From positions 434,001 to 498,000 of the forward strand of contig NZ_SOBW01000008.1 of NCBI RefSeq assembly GCF_004364975.1: a stretch of DNA of 64,000 nucleotides, written 5' to 3'. The notes below the pieces were generated by a model. The model saw nothing but the letters and a program-made list of their open reading frames with translations, was not told the DNA's origin and did no database searches. The stretch's first letter is position 1. The number at the start of each line of letters is the position of its first letter. Positions 4,132 to 41,397 of this stretch are shown one piece after another. The translations under genes and the position numbers were made by a program. The DNA is from Gelidibacter sediminis (GTDB taxonomy: Bacteria > Bacteroidota > Bacteroidia > Flavobacteriales > Flavobacteriaceae).

Positions 4132-4334
4132 TGGTGAATTTAAGCGATAAAAGTAAGAAACAAAACTTAAAAACATATTGAAACCTTGTAAATTTGATAT
4201 AATATTAACTTTATTCAGTTCAGAGGATTGTGTAAATAGTTTAATATTTAGCGGACTTATTAGAATAAAAAAAACGAAGAGAAAAGTTAAACCCTCCACT
4301 TCGTCTTACAATTATGCTATAAGGTTTAAATTAA

Positions 4335-6227
4335 CTAATCCTTACGTCTTGAGCGTGTTGGTCTAGAAAAGCCAACGTCTGAAGTTGTTCTTTCGCTAGC
4401 ACCAGAACGTCTATCTCTTCGGTTTGGCCCAGCGCTATCTCCAGAACGTCTTGGTCTTGAGGCATCAGAAGACCTGCCGCCTCTACTTCCTGAAGACTTG
4501 AAGTCGCCACCAGAACGTCTATCGCTGCGTGACTTAAAATCGCCACCAGAACGTCTGCCACCGCCATCACCGCTACTAGAGCGTCTTTTGTTTCTGCTTG
4601 TACCTCTGCCTTTATCTTCACTAACTTCAACGTTTACAAAACGTCCATTATGCTTATAATCATTGAAGAATGCCAGTATTTTTTCTTGTAAGCCTTTGTC
4701 AGTATTAAAAAATGAGAAACTTTCTTTAACATCCACTTTAAAAACATCATCCCTTCCAAGATCTAAGATTTCCTTCAAGAAGTCTTTTAAGCTCATCCAA
4801 TCAAATCCGTCTTTCTTACCCACGTTGATAAAATAACGTGTAGAATCATTATTACCCCCATAACTCTTTCCAAAATCGCCATCTCTATCACTGCTTCGAG
4901 CGTCAGGTACTGAAAGGTTTTTAGATTTGTTATAATAATTAAAGAAACGTGTAAATTCTACAGAAAAGAATTTCTTGATGAGTTCATCTTTAGAAGTATC
5001 TTCAAATAACTCATTAATACTAGTCAAATATTTTTCAATTTCAGGATTGATTTCAGTAGTATGGATTTTATTTGCCAAAGACATTAACTGCACTTCACAA
5101 ATTTCCATTCCGTCAGGAATTTCTTTCTTGTCAAAATTCTTATTAATGATACGCTCAATACTTTTTATTTTACGCAACTCACTCTTAGAAACAATCACCA
5201 TTGAGACACCAGTTTTACCGGCGCGGCCTGTTCTACCCGAACGGTGTGTATAGGTTTCAATTTCATCAGGCAATTGGTAATTGATAACGTGTGTAATGTT
5301 ATCAACATCAATACCTCGGGCAGCAACATCAGTAGCCACCAACATTTGGATTTGATTTTTACGGAAAGAATTCATGACCATATCACGTTGGTTCTGGCTT
5401 AAGTCGCCATGTAAGGCACCAGCGCTATAACCATCTTCAATTAACTGTTCCGCTACTTTTTGGGTATCACGTTTGGTACGACAAAATATTACTGAAAAAA
5501 TATCAGGGTTTGCGTCGGCCAAACGTTTTAAAGCTTGGTAACGATCTCGAGCATTGACCAAATAATATTCGTGCGTAACTTGATTCGTGCTTTCATTTTT
5601 ATTTCCAACAGTGATTTCAACTGGCGAATTCATGAATTTTTTCGCAATGGTCGAAACTTCTTTTGGCATGGTTGCAGAAAACAACCAGGTATTTTTGTCT
5701 TTTGGAGAGTGGGAGAGAATATCAGTGATATCTTCATAAAATCCCATGTTAAGCATTTCATCGGCTTCATCTAGTACCGCATATTCAATTTTAGAAATGT
5801 CAACCATGTTACGGTTAATCATATCTTTCATACGACCAGGTGTAGCGACAATAATTTGTGCCCCTCTTTTTACTTCTCGTGCTTGGTCGCTTATGCTCGC
5901 TCCACCATAAATGGCAGCTACATTAAAACCTTTACAATATTTTCCGTAATTTTTTAACTCGTTGGTAATTTGCAAACATAGTTCGCGAGTAGGAGAAAGG
6001 ATTAAACCTTGTGTTGTTCTGCTATCAAAGTTAATTTTCTGTAACATCGGAAATCCGAAAGCAGCAGTCTTACCTGTTCCTGTTTGTGCTAAAGCCACTA
6101 AATCAGTGTCTTGGTCTAATAAAATTGGAATTGCTTTGGCTTGGACGTCACTAGGGGTTTCAAAACCCATGTCAGTAATAGCGCGTAATAGGTCATCATT
6201 AAGACCTAAATCTTGGAATGTGTTCAT
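4335..6227 (-). CDS. DEAD-box RNA helicase with DbpA-type RNA-binding domain
   Basis: A 630-residue ATP-dependent RNA helicase. Order: Q motif (1-30), AQTGTGKT (47-54), PTRELCLQ, TPGRMKD, DEAD (153-156), SAT (184-186), RGIDVDN and HRSGRTGRAG in the second RecA lobe, a DbpA/CsdA RRM-like domain with RYFINVGKKDG (about 465-540), and a basic low-complexity tail (about 550-630) rich in RRSGGD and SRGG units. The tail should bind RNA nonspecifically. Architecture matches DeaD/CsdA-type helicases, which help ribosome assembly and mRNA turnover, particularly in the cold. It is monocistronic, with a 5' leader of about 100 nt after a good -7 box at 6342-6349. Confidence 0.93.
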   Translation of the reverse strand: MNTFQDLGLNDDLLRAITDMGFETPSDVQAKAIPILLDQDTDLVALAQTGTGKTAAFGFPMLQKINFDSRTTQGLILSPTRELCLQITNELKNYGKYCKGFNVAAIYGGASISDQAREVKRGAQIIVATPGRMKDMINRNMVDISKIEYAVLDEADEMLNMGFYEDITDILSHSPKDKNTWLFSATMPKEVSTIAKKFMNSPVEITVGNKNESTNQVTHEYYLVNARDRYQALKRLADANPDIFSVIFCRTKRDTQKVAEQLIEDGYSAGALHGDLSQNQRDMVMNSFRKNQIQMLVATDVAARGIDVDNITHVINYQLPDEIETYTHRSGRTGRAGKTGVSMVIVSKSELRKIKSIERIINKNFDKKEIPDGMEICEVQLMSLANKIHTTEINPEIEKYLTSINELFEDTSKDELIKKFFSVEFTRFFNYYNKSKNLSVPDARSSDRDGDFGKSYGGNNDSTRYFINVGKKDGFDWMSLKDFLKEILDLGRDDVFKVDVKESFSFFNTDKGLQEKILAFFNDYKHNGRFVNVEVSEDKGRGTSRNKRRSSSGDGGGRRSGGDFKSRSDRRSGGDFKSSGSRGGRSSDASRPRRSGDSAGPNRRDRRSGASERTTSDVGFSRPTRSRRKD

Positions 6228-36307: not shown

Positions 36308-37636
36308 GTGTTGAAGCGAAGCGTAACAGGATCATTATTAGTGGGTTTGAGTCTCGTGATGTTGCTTTTTGTAGTGTTCAGAACTACTTATGCCACCACT
36401 AAAATTGTAGACAAAACACGGAAGGTTTTTATCATAAAAGACAAGGGTAAATTTCAACTCTACAGAAACGGCGTTCCGTTTAAAATTAGAGGAGCTACGG
36501 GCCATAGCTATTTAAAGGATTTAGCAGACATTGGGGCCAATACCGTAAGGGTATATGATTTTAAGAATATAGGTACCCTGTTGGACGAAGCCCATCGGCT
36601 GAACCTAGCCGTTATTGTAGATATCCCATTATCTAAATATACTGACGGCGACGAATTTTATTCTGATCTTAATCAAATCCGTCAGTTTAAGGATACCATC
36701 AAAAATTTAGTAAACTCTTATAAACATCATCCGGCCCTGTTATTCTGGAGTTTGGGTAATGAACTCGACTATCCTTTAGTTTTACGAAAAAATGATTTTA
36801 TCAATACCTATAATGAGCTTATAGATCTGATTCAAACAGAAGACCCTGACCATCCTGTAGGGACGAGCATTGTGCCCTCAAGACCGCAGACACTGAGCAT
36901 TCACTTACATTCGCCACAATTGGATTTTATCGGGTTTAATGCCTTTGGAAATCTGCAGATGATCAAACCCCTAATGCGTAAAATTAATTTGCTCACTAAC
37001 GCCATGCCCTATTATATTAGCGAGTACGGCAATAATGGACCATGGGAGGAGGAAGGCACTCTATGGTCAGTGCCTATTGAACAGACTAGTACTAAAAAAG
37101 CGGAACAATACAGTAATTATTATAAGTCCTATATTCAACCAAACACAGCATCTATGGGAGATTTGGTGTTTTATTGGGGTCATAAACAAGAACATACGCA
37201 CACTTGGTTCAGTATATTTGATGATCAGGGTAGGAAATCGGAGGTATTCTATACATTAAAAACACAATGGGGGCAGCCTGAAAATAAAGCGGAATGGCCG
37301 CCACAGATTAACTATATGCGCATTGATAATCAGGGTTCAAAAGACACCCTAATTTATAATGCTAAGACAATCAAAACAGCGGAGATTTTAATGGTAAAAG
37401 AACCAATAGAAGACTACCAATACGAATGGGAAATCTATAAGGAAGGCTGGAATTACCAGCAGACTAAAAAAGAAGCGCGCCCGGAAAACATCCCGTTTAC
37501 TACCATCGCAAAAAATGCAAATTCCCTAACGTTTAAAGTGCCTGAAAAAGAGGGGCCCTATCGAATGTTTGTTTATGTATATGATCAGAAAGGCAATTTT
37601 GCAACCACTAATGTCCCCTTCTATGTGCTGAACTAA
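36308..37636 (+). CDS. Membrane-anchored TIM-barrel glycosidase (GH2/GH5-like)
   Basis: A 442-residue protein with an N-terminal anchor (residues 8-30) and a TIM-barrel catalytic domain (about 45-335). FKIRGATGHSY, LADIGANTVRVYDF, LLFWSLGNELDY (acid/base E152) and PYYISEYGNNGP (nucleophile E239) match the GH2-C/GH5 clan A layout, which also includes glucanosyltransferase-like enzymes. A beta-sandwich follows (about 340-442). It faces the periplasm. The start is a GTG (36308) or TTG (36311); no ATG is nearby. The TAA overlaps the GT2 start by one base, implying coupled expression with the synthase. A role in trimming or rearranging the polymer made by the GT2 is inferred. Confidence 0.85.
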   Translation: MLKRSVTGSLLVGLSLVMLLFVVFRTTYATTKIVDKTRKVFIIKDKGKFQLYRNGVPFKIRGATGHSYLKDLADIGANTVRVYDFKNIGTLLDEAHRLNLAVIVDIPLSKYTDGDEFYSDLNQIRQFKDTIKNLVNSYKHHPALLFWSLGNELDYPLVLRKNDFINTYNELIDLIQTEDPDHPVGTSIVPSRPQTLSIHLHSPQLDFIGFNAFGNLQMIKPLMRKINLLTNAMPYYISEYGNNGPWEEEGTLWSVPIEQTSTKKAEQYSNYYKSYIQPNTASMGDLVFYWGHKQEHTHTWFSIFDDQGRKSEVFYTLKTQWGQPENKAEWPPQINYMRIDNQGSKDTLIYNAKTIKTAEILMVKEPIEDYQYEWEIYKEGWNYQQTKKEARPENIPFTTIAKNANSLTFKVPEKEGPYRMFVYVYDQKGNFATTNVPFYVLN

Positions 37637-38793
37637 TGACTGATCAAAACATTATAACCCAACCCAAACGACAGGAACTGCTCGTTCTTCGTACGCTTAT
37701 TGTAATAGCGCTGCTATGTGTTGGTAATTTTTTTTATTGGTTTCTGCAACCTGAGCTTATTGAGACACCGGTGTTATTTATATTGTTAACCTTAGTAATG
37801 GTATTTGACACTTTACGGGTCGTGTATATTTGGTATCACTATTGGACAATCAGTGTCCCTGCGCCCCCTGTTTCTAACACACCTTTTACTGTAGATGTGT
37901 TTACAACATATTTTCCTGGTGAACCTTATGAAATGACTACCCAAACGCTTTTGGCGATAAAACAAATGGGGTATCCTCACACCACTTATTTGTGCGATGA
38001 AGCTGATGATGCTTTTTTAAAATCTTTTTGTCAAACTCATAATATTGTTCATGTAACCCGATCAAATAGGATCAATGCCAAAGCAGGAAACATCAATAAC
38101 GCATTGCAGCAAGCTACTGGGGATTTGTGCCTCATTTTAGATCCCGATCATATCCCTAAACCTAACTTCTTAGAAGACATTGTACCTTATTTTGAAGATG
38201 ATGCTATAGGTTATGTGCAAACGGTCCAGGCCTATTACAATATTGATGAATCTTATGTGGCTGAAGGCGCAGCACAGCAAACCTTCCATTTTTATGGTCC
38301 AATGATGATGTCTATGAATGCCTATGGTACAGTAAATGCCATTGGAGCTAATTGTCTGTTTAGACGAAAAGCGTTGCTCAGTATTGGTGGGCACGCTCCA
38401 GGCTTATCTGAAGATATGCATACGGCCATGCAACTACATGCTAAAGGTTGGCGCTCTATATACGTGCCCAAGGTGTTTACTAAAGGGTTGGTGCCGGCAT
38501 CATTAACAGCGTATTATAAGCAACAGTTAAAGTGGTCTAGAGGTACTCTCGAATTGTTAGTATCAGTATATCCAAAACTTTTCAAATCATTCAATTGGCG
38601 ACAAAAACTGCATTATGGGATGTTGCCTTTGCACTATCTGTCTGGAATCATCTTTTTTATAGGATTTTTAATCCCCATTATCTCACTATTTAACGCCTCA
38701 TTACCTTGGCGCGGAAATGTCATCCGGTTTGGTCTCATATACCTTCCTGTGGTCATGTCCATTATCTGTATACGCATTTATGTACAAAAGTGA
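37636..38793 (+). CDS. GT2 cellulose-synthase-like glycosyltransferase, C-terminally short
   Basis: A 385-residue processive beta-glycosyltransferase core. Two N-terminal membrane helices (about 18-38, 42-66), then GT2 motifs: CDEADD (D121), DPDH as the DxD at 169-173, SED (258-260) and QQLKW as the QxxRW box (296-300), and two or three C-terminal helices (about 330-350, 362-383). It should polymerise a beta-linked glycan from a UDP-sugar and push it through the membrane. The protein stops at 'IYVQK', earlier than such synthases usually end: the expected 'ERGxxxxGG' turn, two more helices and 'PTPKD' lie on the next ORF, in the same frame, after a single TGA. See findings. Confidence 0.88.
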   Translation: MTDQNIITQPKRQELLVLRTLIVIALLCVGNFFYWFLQPELIETPVLFILLTLVMVFDTLRVVYIWYHYWTISVPAPPVSNTPFTVDVFTTYFPGEPYEMTTQTLLAIKQMGYPHTTYLCDEADDAFLKSFCQTHNIVHVTRSNRINAKAGNINNALQQATGDLCLILDPDHIPKPNFLEDIVPYFEDDAIGYVQTVQAYYNIDESYVAEGAAQQTFHFYGPMMMSMNAYGTVNAIGANCLFRRKALLSIGGHAPGLSEDMHTAMQLHAKGWRSIYVPKVFTKGLVPASLTAYYKQQLKWSRGTLELLVSVYPKLFKSFNWRQKLHYGMLPLHYLSGIIFFIGFLIPIISLFNASLPWRGNVIRFGLIYLPVVMSIICIRIYVQK

Positions 38794-38814
38794 GTCATGC
38801 ACAAAAGTGAGCGC
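38781..38814 (+). repeat. 17-nt imperfect tandem duplication at the GT2/GH26 junction
   Basis: TGTACAAAAGTGAGTCA (38781-38797) is followed by TGCACAAAAGTGAGCGC (38798-38814); the first 14 bases differ at one position. It contains the TGA that ends the GT2 and the ATG that begins the next gene. Confidence 0.8.
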
Positions 38815-41397
38815 GGTATTCATGTGCAAGGCGGACTGCTGCTCATGTGTACCTGGTGGGTGTTTACATTGGGGGCGTTTTATACGGTTATTAGAAAAAA
38901 TGTGCCTTACTTACCAACACCTAAGGATGATAAAGAGGTGACCAATTTTAAGATTGTAGTTCCCAATATTGTGGTGGGAATGCTTTCTATTGCCGCCATT
39001 ATCTATGGTTTGTCTATAGATTTTACGCCGTTTTCAATAGTCATGTCTGGATTTGCTTTACTTAACGCCTTGATTATGTTTTATACCTTGGTGTTTGCGT
39101 ACCAAAAAATGAACCCTATTTGTTTTCCCAGTCATGAGAACTCCATTATTTATAAAAAGACTACTAGAAATAAGGTATTCAAATTTTTTAGTTCGTCAGC
39201 TTTGTTTTTAGTTGTGTTGACCGTTATTGGTAGTGCAGGACTTCAATACTATGGCGATTATGTAAAGTGGGAAGGCGTGACGCCGGCAAAAATAGAACAA
39301 CATACAATTAATTATATCGGGATTTTTGCACCAAAAGAGGACAATGGACTAACCAATCTGGTGGAGGCTAAGAGAATTTCAAATATGGTGGAAAACGAGT
39401 TTAATTTAATCTCTCTTTATTTGGCATGGAATAAGGACATTGCAAATAGTTTTTCTTCACAATTGATTGACGCTATGTATAAACAAAATTCCATTCCTAT
39501 TATCACTTGGGAACCATGGATCAATACATTTGATGAAAATATTCAAGAACAGCACGTTTTTGATTTGATTTCTTTAGGGTATTTTGACGATTATCTGAAG
39601 CAATTTGCCTATAAACTTAAAGATTTGAACAGACCTGTATTTTTAAGATTTGCGCATGAATTTGATAACCCGTTTTATCCTTGGTATTATGAAGGTAATC
39701 AGGCGCCAGCCAAATTTAAAATGGCGTGGGTGCATGTTTACGAAATTTTCAAAAATGAAGGGGCTGAGAATGTCATTTGGATATGGAATCCGTGGAAATC
39801 AGAACATATTGCCGATTACTATCCGGGGAAAGCCTATGTGGATTGGATGGGGGTTAATGCTCTTAATTATGGCAATTTAAATGGTGATGGCCAATGGCAT
39901 GAGTTTGAAGAACTTTATGAACCTTATCACGATGCCTTCAAAAAACTACCACCAACTCCTGTGGTCATTTCTGAATTTGGATCCTTAAAAAACAATCCTC
40001 AGGAAAATTCCTCAGATTGGATCAATAATGCGGTTACCGCTATAGAGAACAATTTTAAAGAAATTAAATCCATTATCTATTTCAATAGTAAAGTAGATAA
40101 CAACTGGCCATCAGGGGAACGTGTGGATGCGTATTTGGATTGGTCCCTACCATCGTCACAAACCAAAATTCACATCTTTGCCAACAAGGTAGTGCCCAAC
40201 TACATCCCTGGACCTTTGCCGGCAATCAGTACTGAGATGATAGAAGTGGATGAAAGTGTCCATCCCTTGACACATATAAAAGGAATCAATTTAAAACAAG
40301 GGCAAAGTTGGGAGAATGACTATCACGTGTTGAATCGGAAAAAATTAATATCCAATTTTAAGGATTTGAAGACTATAGGTATCAATACCCTGAAATATCA
40401 AGGCAACTCCATCTATGATTACAATGTGTTAAACATCAGCAAAAAGACAGGCCTCAACTTGGCGTATACATTTTGGATTCCTGAGCATCTTGATTTTATG
40501 AAGGATACAATGCAACTGACTGAATTAAAAGCAGAGATCTTGGAACGGGTGCGTCATCAGAAATATACCGCGCATATTGTGTCGTGGCACATTGAAAATG
40601 ATGTGCAGTATAGGCAGAACAATTTTTATCATAAGCCATCGCTACTGTACCAAAATAGAGCGTATGTGTTGTGGTTAAAAGCCTTGGCTGAAGAAATTAA
40701 AAATATTGATGCCACTCGGCCGTTGATAGTAGATGTTGAAGTAAATCCGCTAGCCATTTTCCATATCAATCGATTGCTGGCTAACAGTATGGATATAGAT
40801 GCTATTGGGTTGGTGGTTAAAGAGACCGATTATTTAAATGTAGTGACCGCGTATCTTAAGGATATTAATAAACACTATATCATTAGTGATATTAAGACAG
40901 ACGATTTTGCAGCGCATCCTATTGTCGCTACTGAAAACACTTTTTTTATAAATTCTTGGCAAGATAAACATGAAAGCAATGCGCTAGATTTTAATGGCAT
41001 TGTGGATAGAAAGGGGAGGTATAAGCCTGACTATGTCACACTTGCTTCATTATTACAGGAGCATCAGGAAACCGTAGTCCTTCCAAAAATTAAAATTCTT
41101 AGACCGGCAAGGTTAATCTATGATGAGAGCTCTTACACATTTCATGCTATGGTCTATCACCCCCAAGACGGTTGGCAAGTGGCTTCTAAACAAAAAGATT
41201 TAAAAATTGAATGGTCCTTGATTAAATGTGATGCCTACGGTAATTACCTCGCTCTAAAAGCGGTGGGAACGAAAGCGAAACTCAGCTTAAAAATACCTAA
41301 AAACTACACCTATTATAAGTTGCATCTCAGCATTGTTAAGGGCGATTATGTTACAAGCACGCTCACCACTTTAAATACACCGTTACACGTCGATTGA
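38797..41397 (+). CDS. Membrane-bound GH26-type hydrolase fused to a degenerate barrel
   Basis: An 866-residue protein. Residues 1-45 carry the end of a GT2 fold (SERGIHVQGG, a helix at 12-33, then PYLPTPKDD), followed by membrane helices at about 52-73, 80-103 and 128-150. The GH26-type domain (about 165-455) has acid/base E288 (RFAHEFDNPFYPW) and nucleophile E393 (VVISEFGS). A second TIM-barrel-like domain (about 490-750) parallels the glycosidase at 36308 (IKGINLKQG, IVSWHIENDV) but the nucleophile position reads HYIISDIK, with Asp698 instead of Glu, so it is probably non-catalytic and glycan-binding. A C-terminal sandwich ends the protein. The start is the ATG at 38797. Confidence 0.82.
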   Translation: MHKSERGIHVQGGLLLMCTWWVFTLGAFYTVIRKNVPYLPTPKDDKEVTNFKIVVPNIVVGMLSIAAIIYGLSIDFTPFSIVMSGFALLNALIMFYTLVFAYQKMNPICFPSHENSIIYKKTTRNKVFKFFSSSALFLVVLTVIGSAGLQYYGDYVKWEGVTPAKIEQHTINYIGIFAPKEDNGLTNLVEAKRISNMVENEFNLISLYLAWNKDIANSFSSQLIDAMYKQNSIPIITWEPWINTFDENIQEQHVFDLISLGYFDDYLKQFAYKLKDLNRPVFLRFAHEFDNPFYPWYYEGNQAPAKFKMAWVHVYEIFKNEGAENVIWIWNPWKSEHIADYYPGKAYVDWMGVNALNYGNLNGDGQWHEFEELYEPYHDAFKKLPPTPVVISEFGSLKNNPQENSSDWINNAVTAIENNFKEIKSIIYFNSKVDNNWPSGERVDAYLDWSLPSSQTKIHIFANKVVPNYIPGPLPAISTEMIEVDESVHPLTHIKGINLKQGQSWENDYHVLNRKKLISNFKDLKTIGINTLKYQGNSIYDYNVLNISKKTGLNLAYTFWIPEHLDFMKDTMQLTELKAEILERVRHQKYTAHIVSWHIENDVQYRQNNFYHKPSLLYQNRAYVLWLKALAEEIKNIDATRPLIVDVEVNPLAIFHINRLLANSMDIDAIGLVVKETDYLNVVTAYLKDINKHYIISDIKTDDFAAHPIVATENTFFINSWQDKHESNALDFNGIVDRKGRYKPDYVTLASLLQEHQETVVLPKIKILRPARLIYDESSYTFHAMVYHPQDGWQVASKQKDLKIEWSLIKCDAYGNYLALKAVGTKAKLSLKIPKNYTYYKLHLSIVKGDYVTSTLTTLNTPLHVD

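Follow-up and report, generated by a model that had tools for sequence, protein, structure and literature searches.

BcsA is a processive synthase of glycosyltransferase family 2 (GT2), and we take three aspartate motifs (D, D, D) and Q-x-x-(R/K)-W, lying between membrane helices, to define enzymes of this type. The gating loop of BcsA carries the signature FxVTxK, as described in PMC10374906. The locus compared here with these enzymes lies in Gelidibacter sediminis (contig NZ_SOBW01000008.1, positions 434,001 to 498,000); the whole stretch of 64,000 nucleotides that was analysed is called the window, and all positions without an accession refer to it. At 36308-41397, a GT2 open reading frame (ORF1) and an open reading frame bearing a hydrolase domain of family GH26 (ORF2) follow an upstream GH2/GH5-like gene. 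As a preliminary description of the window had stated, the two frames are in phase and are parted only by TGA and one further codon (TGA GTC). From its sequence, the gene is predicted to be a one-piece BcsA-like processive GT2 synthase fused to GH26 and to a C-terminal TIM-barrel-like domain, and it was probably broken recently, in this strain, by a nonsense mutation. The synthase itself would be of a known kind, and the locus a case of ordinary gene breakage and not a new kind of system.

Homologues across the junction

Among the best 80 of 176 relatives scanned by contig, a sample in which rarer breaks elsewhere in the family may be missed, the closest matches were found in Gelidibacter. In the genomes G006 and G001 (86% and 83% identity over the GT2 part), a single chain spans both parts, in open frames of 1270 and 1253 codons; it reads QKWVMHKSERG through the junction, with TGG at the place of the window's TGA. 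These intact orthologues align to positions 37636-41394 (G006) and 37636-41391 (G001), with this single stop inside. ORF1 encodes 385 amino acids and ends in RIYVQK before the TGA, and the synthase elements that the preliminary description had noted as missing from it, SERGIHVQGG and PYLPTPKDD, are both translated within ORF2, at its beginning. In addition, the source genome (G000) harbors a second, intact copy (G000:C2:1434298-1435443) in a frame of 1253 codons, 66% identical over the GT2 part and accompanied by its own upstream GH2/GH5-like gene; two copies are likewise present in G006.

Three overlapping surveys covered the family (397 genomes, E 1e-60) and, at E 1e-90, the phylum and the order (395 genomes each), with up to four candidates scored per genome. 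In all, 107 homologous loci were fetched, some being the same gene twice; the automatic junction motif was found in 105, representing 95 distinct sequences, and the residues of two loci in which it was misread (L112 and L148) and of one in which it was not found (L079) were read from the junction sequences as W, W and F. All loci but L111, which ends earlier, reach the junction, where 104 of the 106 have a TGG tryptophan, two have phenylalanine (L078 and L079, from a shorter, 42%-identical subfamily) and none has a stop. For the full-length comparison, distinct proteins of 1200-1340 amino acids were kept, giving 67 from the 107 loci, the rest being duplicates, shorter subfamilies or sequences cut by contig ends; tryptophan occupies the position of the stop in 67/67 of these, as it does in 38/38 homologues of the alignment used for folding. 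No synthase naturally made as two subunits was found, a split at the window's place being seen in 0/106 junction-reaching loci and in no survey match. Similarly, none of the other matches listed in the three surveys has an open frame of about 393 codons, the length in the window; the shortest (536-565 codons) belong to a 41-42%-identical subfamily.

A search of homologues across the junction had been proposed in the preliminary description, with continuous chains pointing to a recent break or to readthrough; the chains are continuous and none is split at the same place. Its suggestion of a divided synthase-hydrolase fusion of about 1250 residues is therefore supported, one-chain homologues being the rule. 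Intact GT2-GH26 homologues occur in Gelidibacter, Algibacter, Prolixibacteraceae, Balneolaceae, Chitinophaga, one Mucilaginibacter and others. The gene thus presents the pattern of a recent nonsense pseudogene, with a single in-frame stop at a conserved codon of a gene that is intact in relatives.

Organization of the locus and anatomy of the cut

The features of the locus, all on the forward strand, are the following.

36308-37636, forward: upstream partner, a GH2/GH5-like TIM-barrel protein of 442 amino acids (Pfam Glyco_hydro_2_C, 26.6 bits against a cut-off of 21)
37636-38793, forward: ORF1, N-terminal part of the synthase, with two putative membrane helices, the GT2 catalytic domain, two more putative membrane helices and the end IYVQK-TGA (Pfam GT2 families, PDB BcsA matches, model of an intact homologue)
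38780-38811, forward: near-repeat of 15 nucleotides (14/15 identical) on both sides of the stop (sequence comparison)
38791-38793, forward: in-frame TGA, residue 386 of the joined frame, tryptophan (TGG) in homologues (homologue comparison)
38797-41397, forward: ORF2, C-terminal part of 866 amino acids starting at the ATG at 38797, with interface-type helices, a gating-loop-like PTPK, further putative membrane helices, GH26 and a TIM-barrel-like C-terminal domain (Pfam, solved-structure matches)
38914-38925, forward: PTPK at residues 427-430 of the joined frame, matching in position the gating-loop VTAK of BcsA (profile alignment to BcsA)
39319-40218 (approximate), forward: GH26 region with conserved Glu675 (RFAHEF) and Glu780 (VISEFG) (Pfam, solved-structure matches, homologue alignment)
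40219-41394 (approximate), forward: C-terminal domain, weakly resembling the product of the upstream gene (BLASTP E 3e-05 to 36308-37633)

In Pfam searches of the window proteins, ORF1 matches GT2 and Cellulose_synt families, ORF2 matches Glyco_hydro_26, and the product of the upstream gene matches Glyco_hydro_2_C. ORF1 harbors the motifs DPDH, SED and QQLKW (of the QxxRW type), and D171, D260 and W300 are conserved in 15/15 aligned homologues. The GH26 match of ORF2 (PF02156) reaches 38.5 bits against a cut-off of 20.2, and Glu675 and Glu780, presumably the catalytic glutamates of this family, are also conserved in 15/15 homologues. At E 0.01 the same family was matched by the homologue L083 (43 bits) and by none of L081, L141 and L112, which counts against the GH26 assignment.

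Residues 1-560 of the intact G006 homologue were modeled with AlphaFold2 (mean pLDDT 86.7, pTM 0.86). The model contains a helix at 362-387 that includes W386, followed by interface-type helices, the PTPK loop and further long helices. By likeness to BcsA, from which the crossing and direction of the membrane helices are inferred, the cut would fall near the end of the fourth membrane helix, on a side that is probably cytoplasmic. According to the model, ORF1 retains the catalytic domain and four putative membrane helices; ORF2 comprises the gating-loop-like segment along with the remaining helices and the hydrolase part. P427, T428 and K430 are invariant in 38/38 aligned homologues. In these the gating loop and the C-terminal half of the channel belong to the catalytic chain, whereas in the window PTPK comes after the stop.

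The breakage would thus have proceeded by a recent change of the tryptophan 386 codon of the relatives to TGA in this strain, a G-to-A difference. Translation would then end where the fourth membrane helix reaches the cytoplasm, and a fraction of the ribosomes may restart at the ATG three nucleotides on, producing the second half. This copy would have lost its capacity for polymer synthesis, entirely or in large part, since the catalytic domain is severed from the gating-loop-like segment and from half of the channel. This loss may be tolerated thanks to the intact second copy elsewhere in the genome. The apparent pair of a GT2 gene and a GH26 gene is accordingly better annotated as one broken gene than as a two-subunit polymerase.

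The upstream gene is tightly linked to the synthase, its TAA sharing one base with the ATG of the GT2 gene (TAATG, 37634-37638), and a relative of it directly precedes the GT2 gene in 84/107 fetched loci and in 63/67 full-length loci. In G006, the sister genome, a frameshift breaks it into two frames of 228 and 212 amino acids (L033, about 4330-4345, orthologous to window 36985-37004), unlike in the window, G001 and L080, where it gives a single match. Its protein weakly resembles the ORF2 C-terminal domain, which points to duplication of a hydrolase-like module. A Pfam search gave no match for the window's own C-terminal domain; the homologue L141, which has no upstream GH2/GH5-like gene, carries Glyco_hydro_2_C at the same place.

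The synthase is modular across the loci L062-L159, most of which encode about 1250 amino acids with GH26 and the C-terminal domain. Forms of about 970-1010 amino acids, with no GH26 in place, were found in six Mucilaginibacter loci and in G143, the six Mucilaginibacter loci having weak GH26-like matches 3.2-4.6 kb downstream of the GT2 start. Pontibacter has the synthase only (about 600-625 amino acids), with no upstream GH2/GH5-like gene. The GT2 homologue of Pontibacter qinzhouensis (L145) has an in-frame TAA in the catalytic domain, after NDP and thus at a different place from the window's stop; it is an independent nonsense break, or an error, in the same family.

Age of the stop codon and signs of decay

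Of the window genes matched in the syntenic stretches of G006 and G001, the synthase-hydrolase gene alone is a real gene interrupted by a stop; the remaining stop-containing matches are antisense frames or upstream extensions of gene frames, as judged from their coordinates. No second stop is present in the 866 codons of ORF2, where about 1.0-1.3 stops would be expected per 0.01 neutral substitutions per site. In comparisons with the nearest relatives, including G006, synonymous sites are near or at saturation, so that the ratio of nonsynonymous to synonymous change (dN/dS) is unable to date the stop; set against the distance to G006, the lack of any further stop in ORF2 implies, under neutrality, a very recent break.

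The window loses 0/86 invariant sites in ORF1 and 0/22 in ORF2, a weak test given that the other homologues lose a median of 0 (mean 0.2 in each part). At a 97% threshold it loses 0/107 and 0/52 sites, as compared with medians of 1 and 0 (means 0.9 and 1.1) in the other 67 homologues. An old, decayed pseudogene is therefore unsupported by the stop count and by these sites. As these weak tests find no decay, one is left with a young stop or with continued use of the two chains.

Several points weigh against a recent nonsense mutation. A single genome of the species was compared, leaving room for a base-calling error. The test on invariant sites is low in power, since a median loss of 0 is also the rule in other homologues, and the absence of decay would be expected equally if both chains remained in use. 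Moreover, the window lineage has accumulated more amino-acid changes than G006, both with G001 as outgroup (118 vs 76, chi2 9.1) and with L083 (105 vs 62, chi2 11.1). It is also higher than the two other relatives tested, L080 (107 vs 75) and G001 (101 vs 80), and this excess could hint at an older loosening of constraint. However, the same tendency is seen in 13 other genes of the region (297 vs 237, chi2 6.7), and we do not read the higher count as decay because the ratios 118:76 and 297:237 are not clearly different (Fisher p 0.24).

Alternative explanations

The first alternative is an error of sequencing or assembly, with a true genome that has no stop at 38791 and makes the protein as one chain. 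It would agree with a single-base difference in a gene otherwise undamaged, at a site constant in all the full-length homologues, and with the fact that no other window gene matched in G006 or G001 is interrupted by a stop. Nevertheless, the genome is in 15 contigs (3.56 Mb) and 99.95% complete, and the site lies inside a contig of 1.45 Mb. We regard such an error as unlikely, and less likely than a recent nonsense mutation.

The second is a functional two-chain enzyme, in which the stop is tolerated or selected, translation restarts three nucleotides on and both chains join in the membrane to form a working synthase-hydrolase. The spacing TGA GTC ATG is suited to it, translation could restart at this ATG, and the operon already has a stop-start overlap at its upstream junction. 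In a review (PMC5972666), reinitiation is described as frequent in prokaryotes, and more than 75% of intercistronic gaps in E. coli are given as shorter than 30 nucleotides, considered too short for de novo initiation. Furthermore, only residues 386-387 are lost, neither half has a further stop or a lost invariant site, and a cut at the end of the 362-387 helix, on the putative cytoplasmic side, could allow both chains to insert with the right topology. On the other hand, W386 is among the residues lost and no examined homologue is split here. The methionine after the stop is ancestral to the one-chain form (QKWVMHK in G006, G001 and L080) and is not an added start, so that the ATG gives no evidence for a selected new start. 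The preliminary description had considered a synthase naturally made as two chains; as a trait of the family this finds no support, and what is left of it is the case of this strain, which from the sequence we judge rather improbable. If it were true, the locus would catch a one-chain processive synthase in the course of evolving into a two-subunit enzyme, cut between its catalytic and gating-loop/channel halves, and working chains would provide a natural test of how well a BcsA-like synthase tolerates such a cut. Otherwise, the recent nonsense mutation amounts to routine gene breakage, with the paralogue as backup.

Recoding, also raised in the preliminary description, is highly improbable. 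Reading of the TGA by, for example, tRNA-Trp would restore the ancestral tryptophan and yield some full-length enzyme, and TGA is a rare terminator in the window (4/47 long open frames, two of these being the halves of this gene). However, the stop is absent from the relatives examined, which argues against a conserved or programmed readthrough, and the rarity of TGA is common to G006 (3/53) and G001 (4/56), both of which have TGG here; TGA also terminates 1/26 window genes that were matched in either of these genomes and 3/51 long frames from other pieces of G000. No UCA anticodon was found among the 34 tRNAs identified and typed (150 of 261 first-look candidates scored; the draft may miss some tRNA genes), the tRNA-Trp stretch is 98% identical to those of G006 and G001 over a 91-nucleotide query, and an RF2 gene is present (prfB match at G000:C2:671152-672192). 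Because of the missing anticodon and the presence of RF2, recoding is unlikely, and a change of the genetic code is rejected on these grounds together with the equal rarity of TGA in relatives. The prfB match itself has an internal TGA and TAG, perhaps, as we assume, the programmed frameshift usual in RF2 genes.

Finally, a small duplication as the cause of the split, as the preliminary description had envisaged, does not stand: close relatives have the same number of codons at the junction, the frame is broken by a stop at a near-constant tryptophan codon, and the 15-nucleotide near-repeat is present in degenerate form in G006 and G001 with no change of length.

Comparison with known systems

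Motifs lying between putative membrane helices and the fold match of the intact homologue put the window synthase in the BcsA-like processive GT2 class. With BcsA (PDB 4HG6/4P00/5EJ1; E. coli 9FMZ/9FNN/9B8V) it has in common the processive GT2 fold, the flanking membrane helices and an aligned gating-loop position. In the best six rows, the model of the G006 homologue superposes on BcsA over 476-490 residues with Z 26.6-30.8, a root-mean-square deviation of 2.6-3.1 A and an identity of 19-22%; Foldseek gives an E of 1.9e-24. The gene differs from BcsA by carrying GH26 and the C-terminal TIM-barrel-like domain. No Pfam match to PilZ, as found in BcsA, was obtained at E 0.01 in the window frames or in the homologues L081, L083, L141 and L112, and the cut-off of the BcsA model TIGR03030 (699.1) is reached neither by ORF1 (156.6 bits) nor by the intact homologue L081 (147.4 bits at full length).

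For the hydrolase part, the best sequence match among solved structures is the GH26 endoglucanase H (PDB 2BV9, 2V3G and others; E 7.8e-22, ORF2 residues 199-441), whose entries we take to be the lichenase Lic26A of Clostridium thermocellum. Unlike endoglucanase H, the GH26 of the window is joined to a membrane synthase; likeness to that enzyme makes a beta-glucan a plausible candidate product. The mixed-linkage glucan synthases (Romboutsia RiGT2, PMC10374906; Sinorhizobium BgsA, PMC5567048; barley CslF6, 8DQK) share the GT2 class with the window synthase, and CslF6 is among the fold matches of the homologue model (Z 20.5). By analogy, a mixed-linkage glucan would fit a lichenase-like partner.

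The main text of the RiGT2 paper (PMC10374906) nowhere contains the word GH26, and a limited literature search found no description of the GT2-GH26 architecture, which may still exist in print; plasmid records gave no match. The intact GT2-GH26 homologues have the same architecture as the window gene and differ from it in being one chain, with a tryptophan where the window has its stop.

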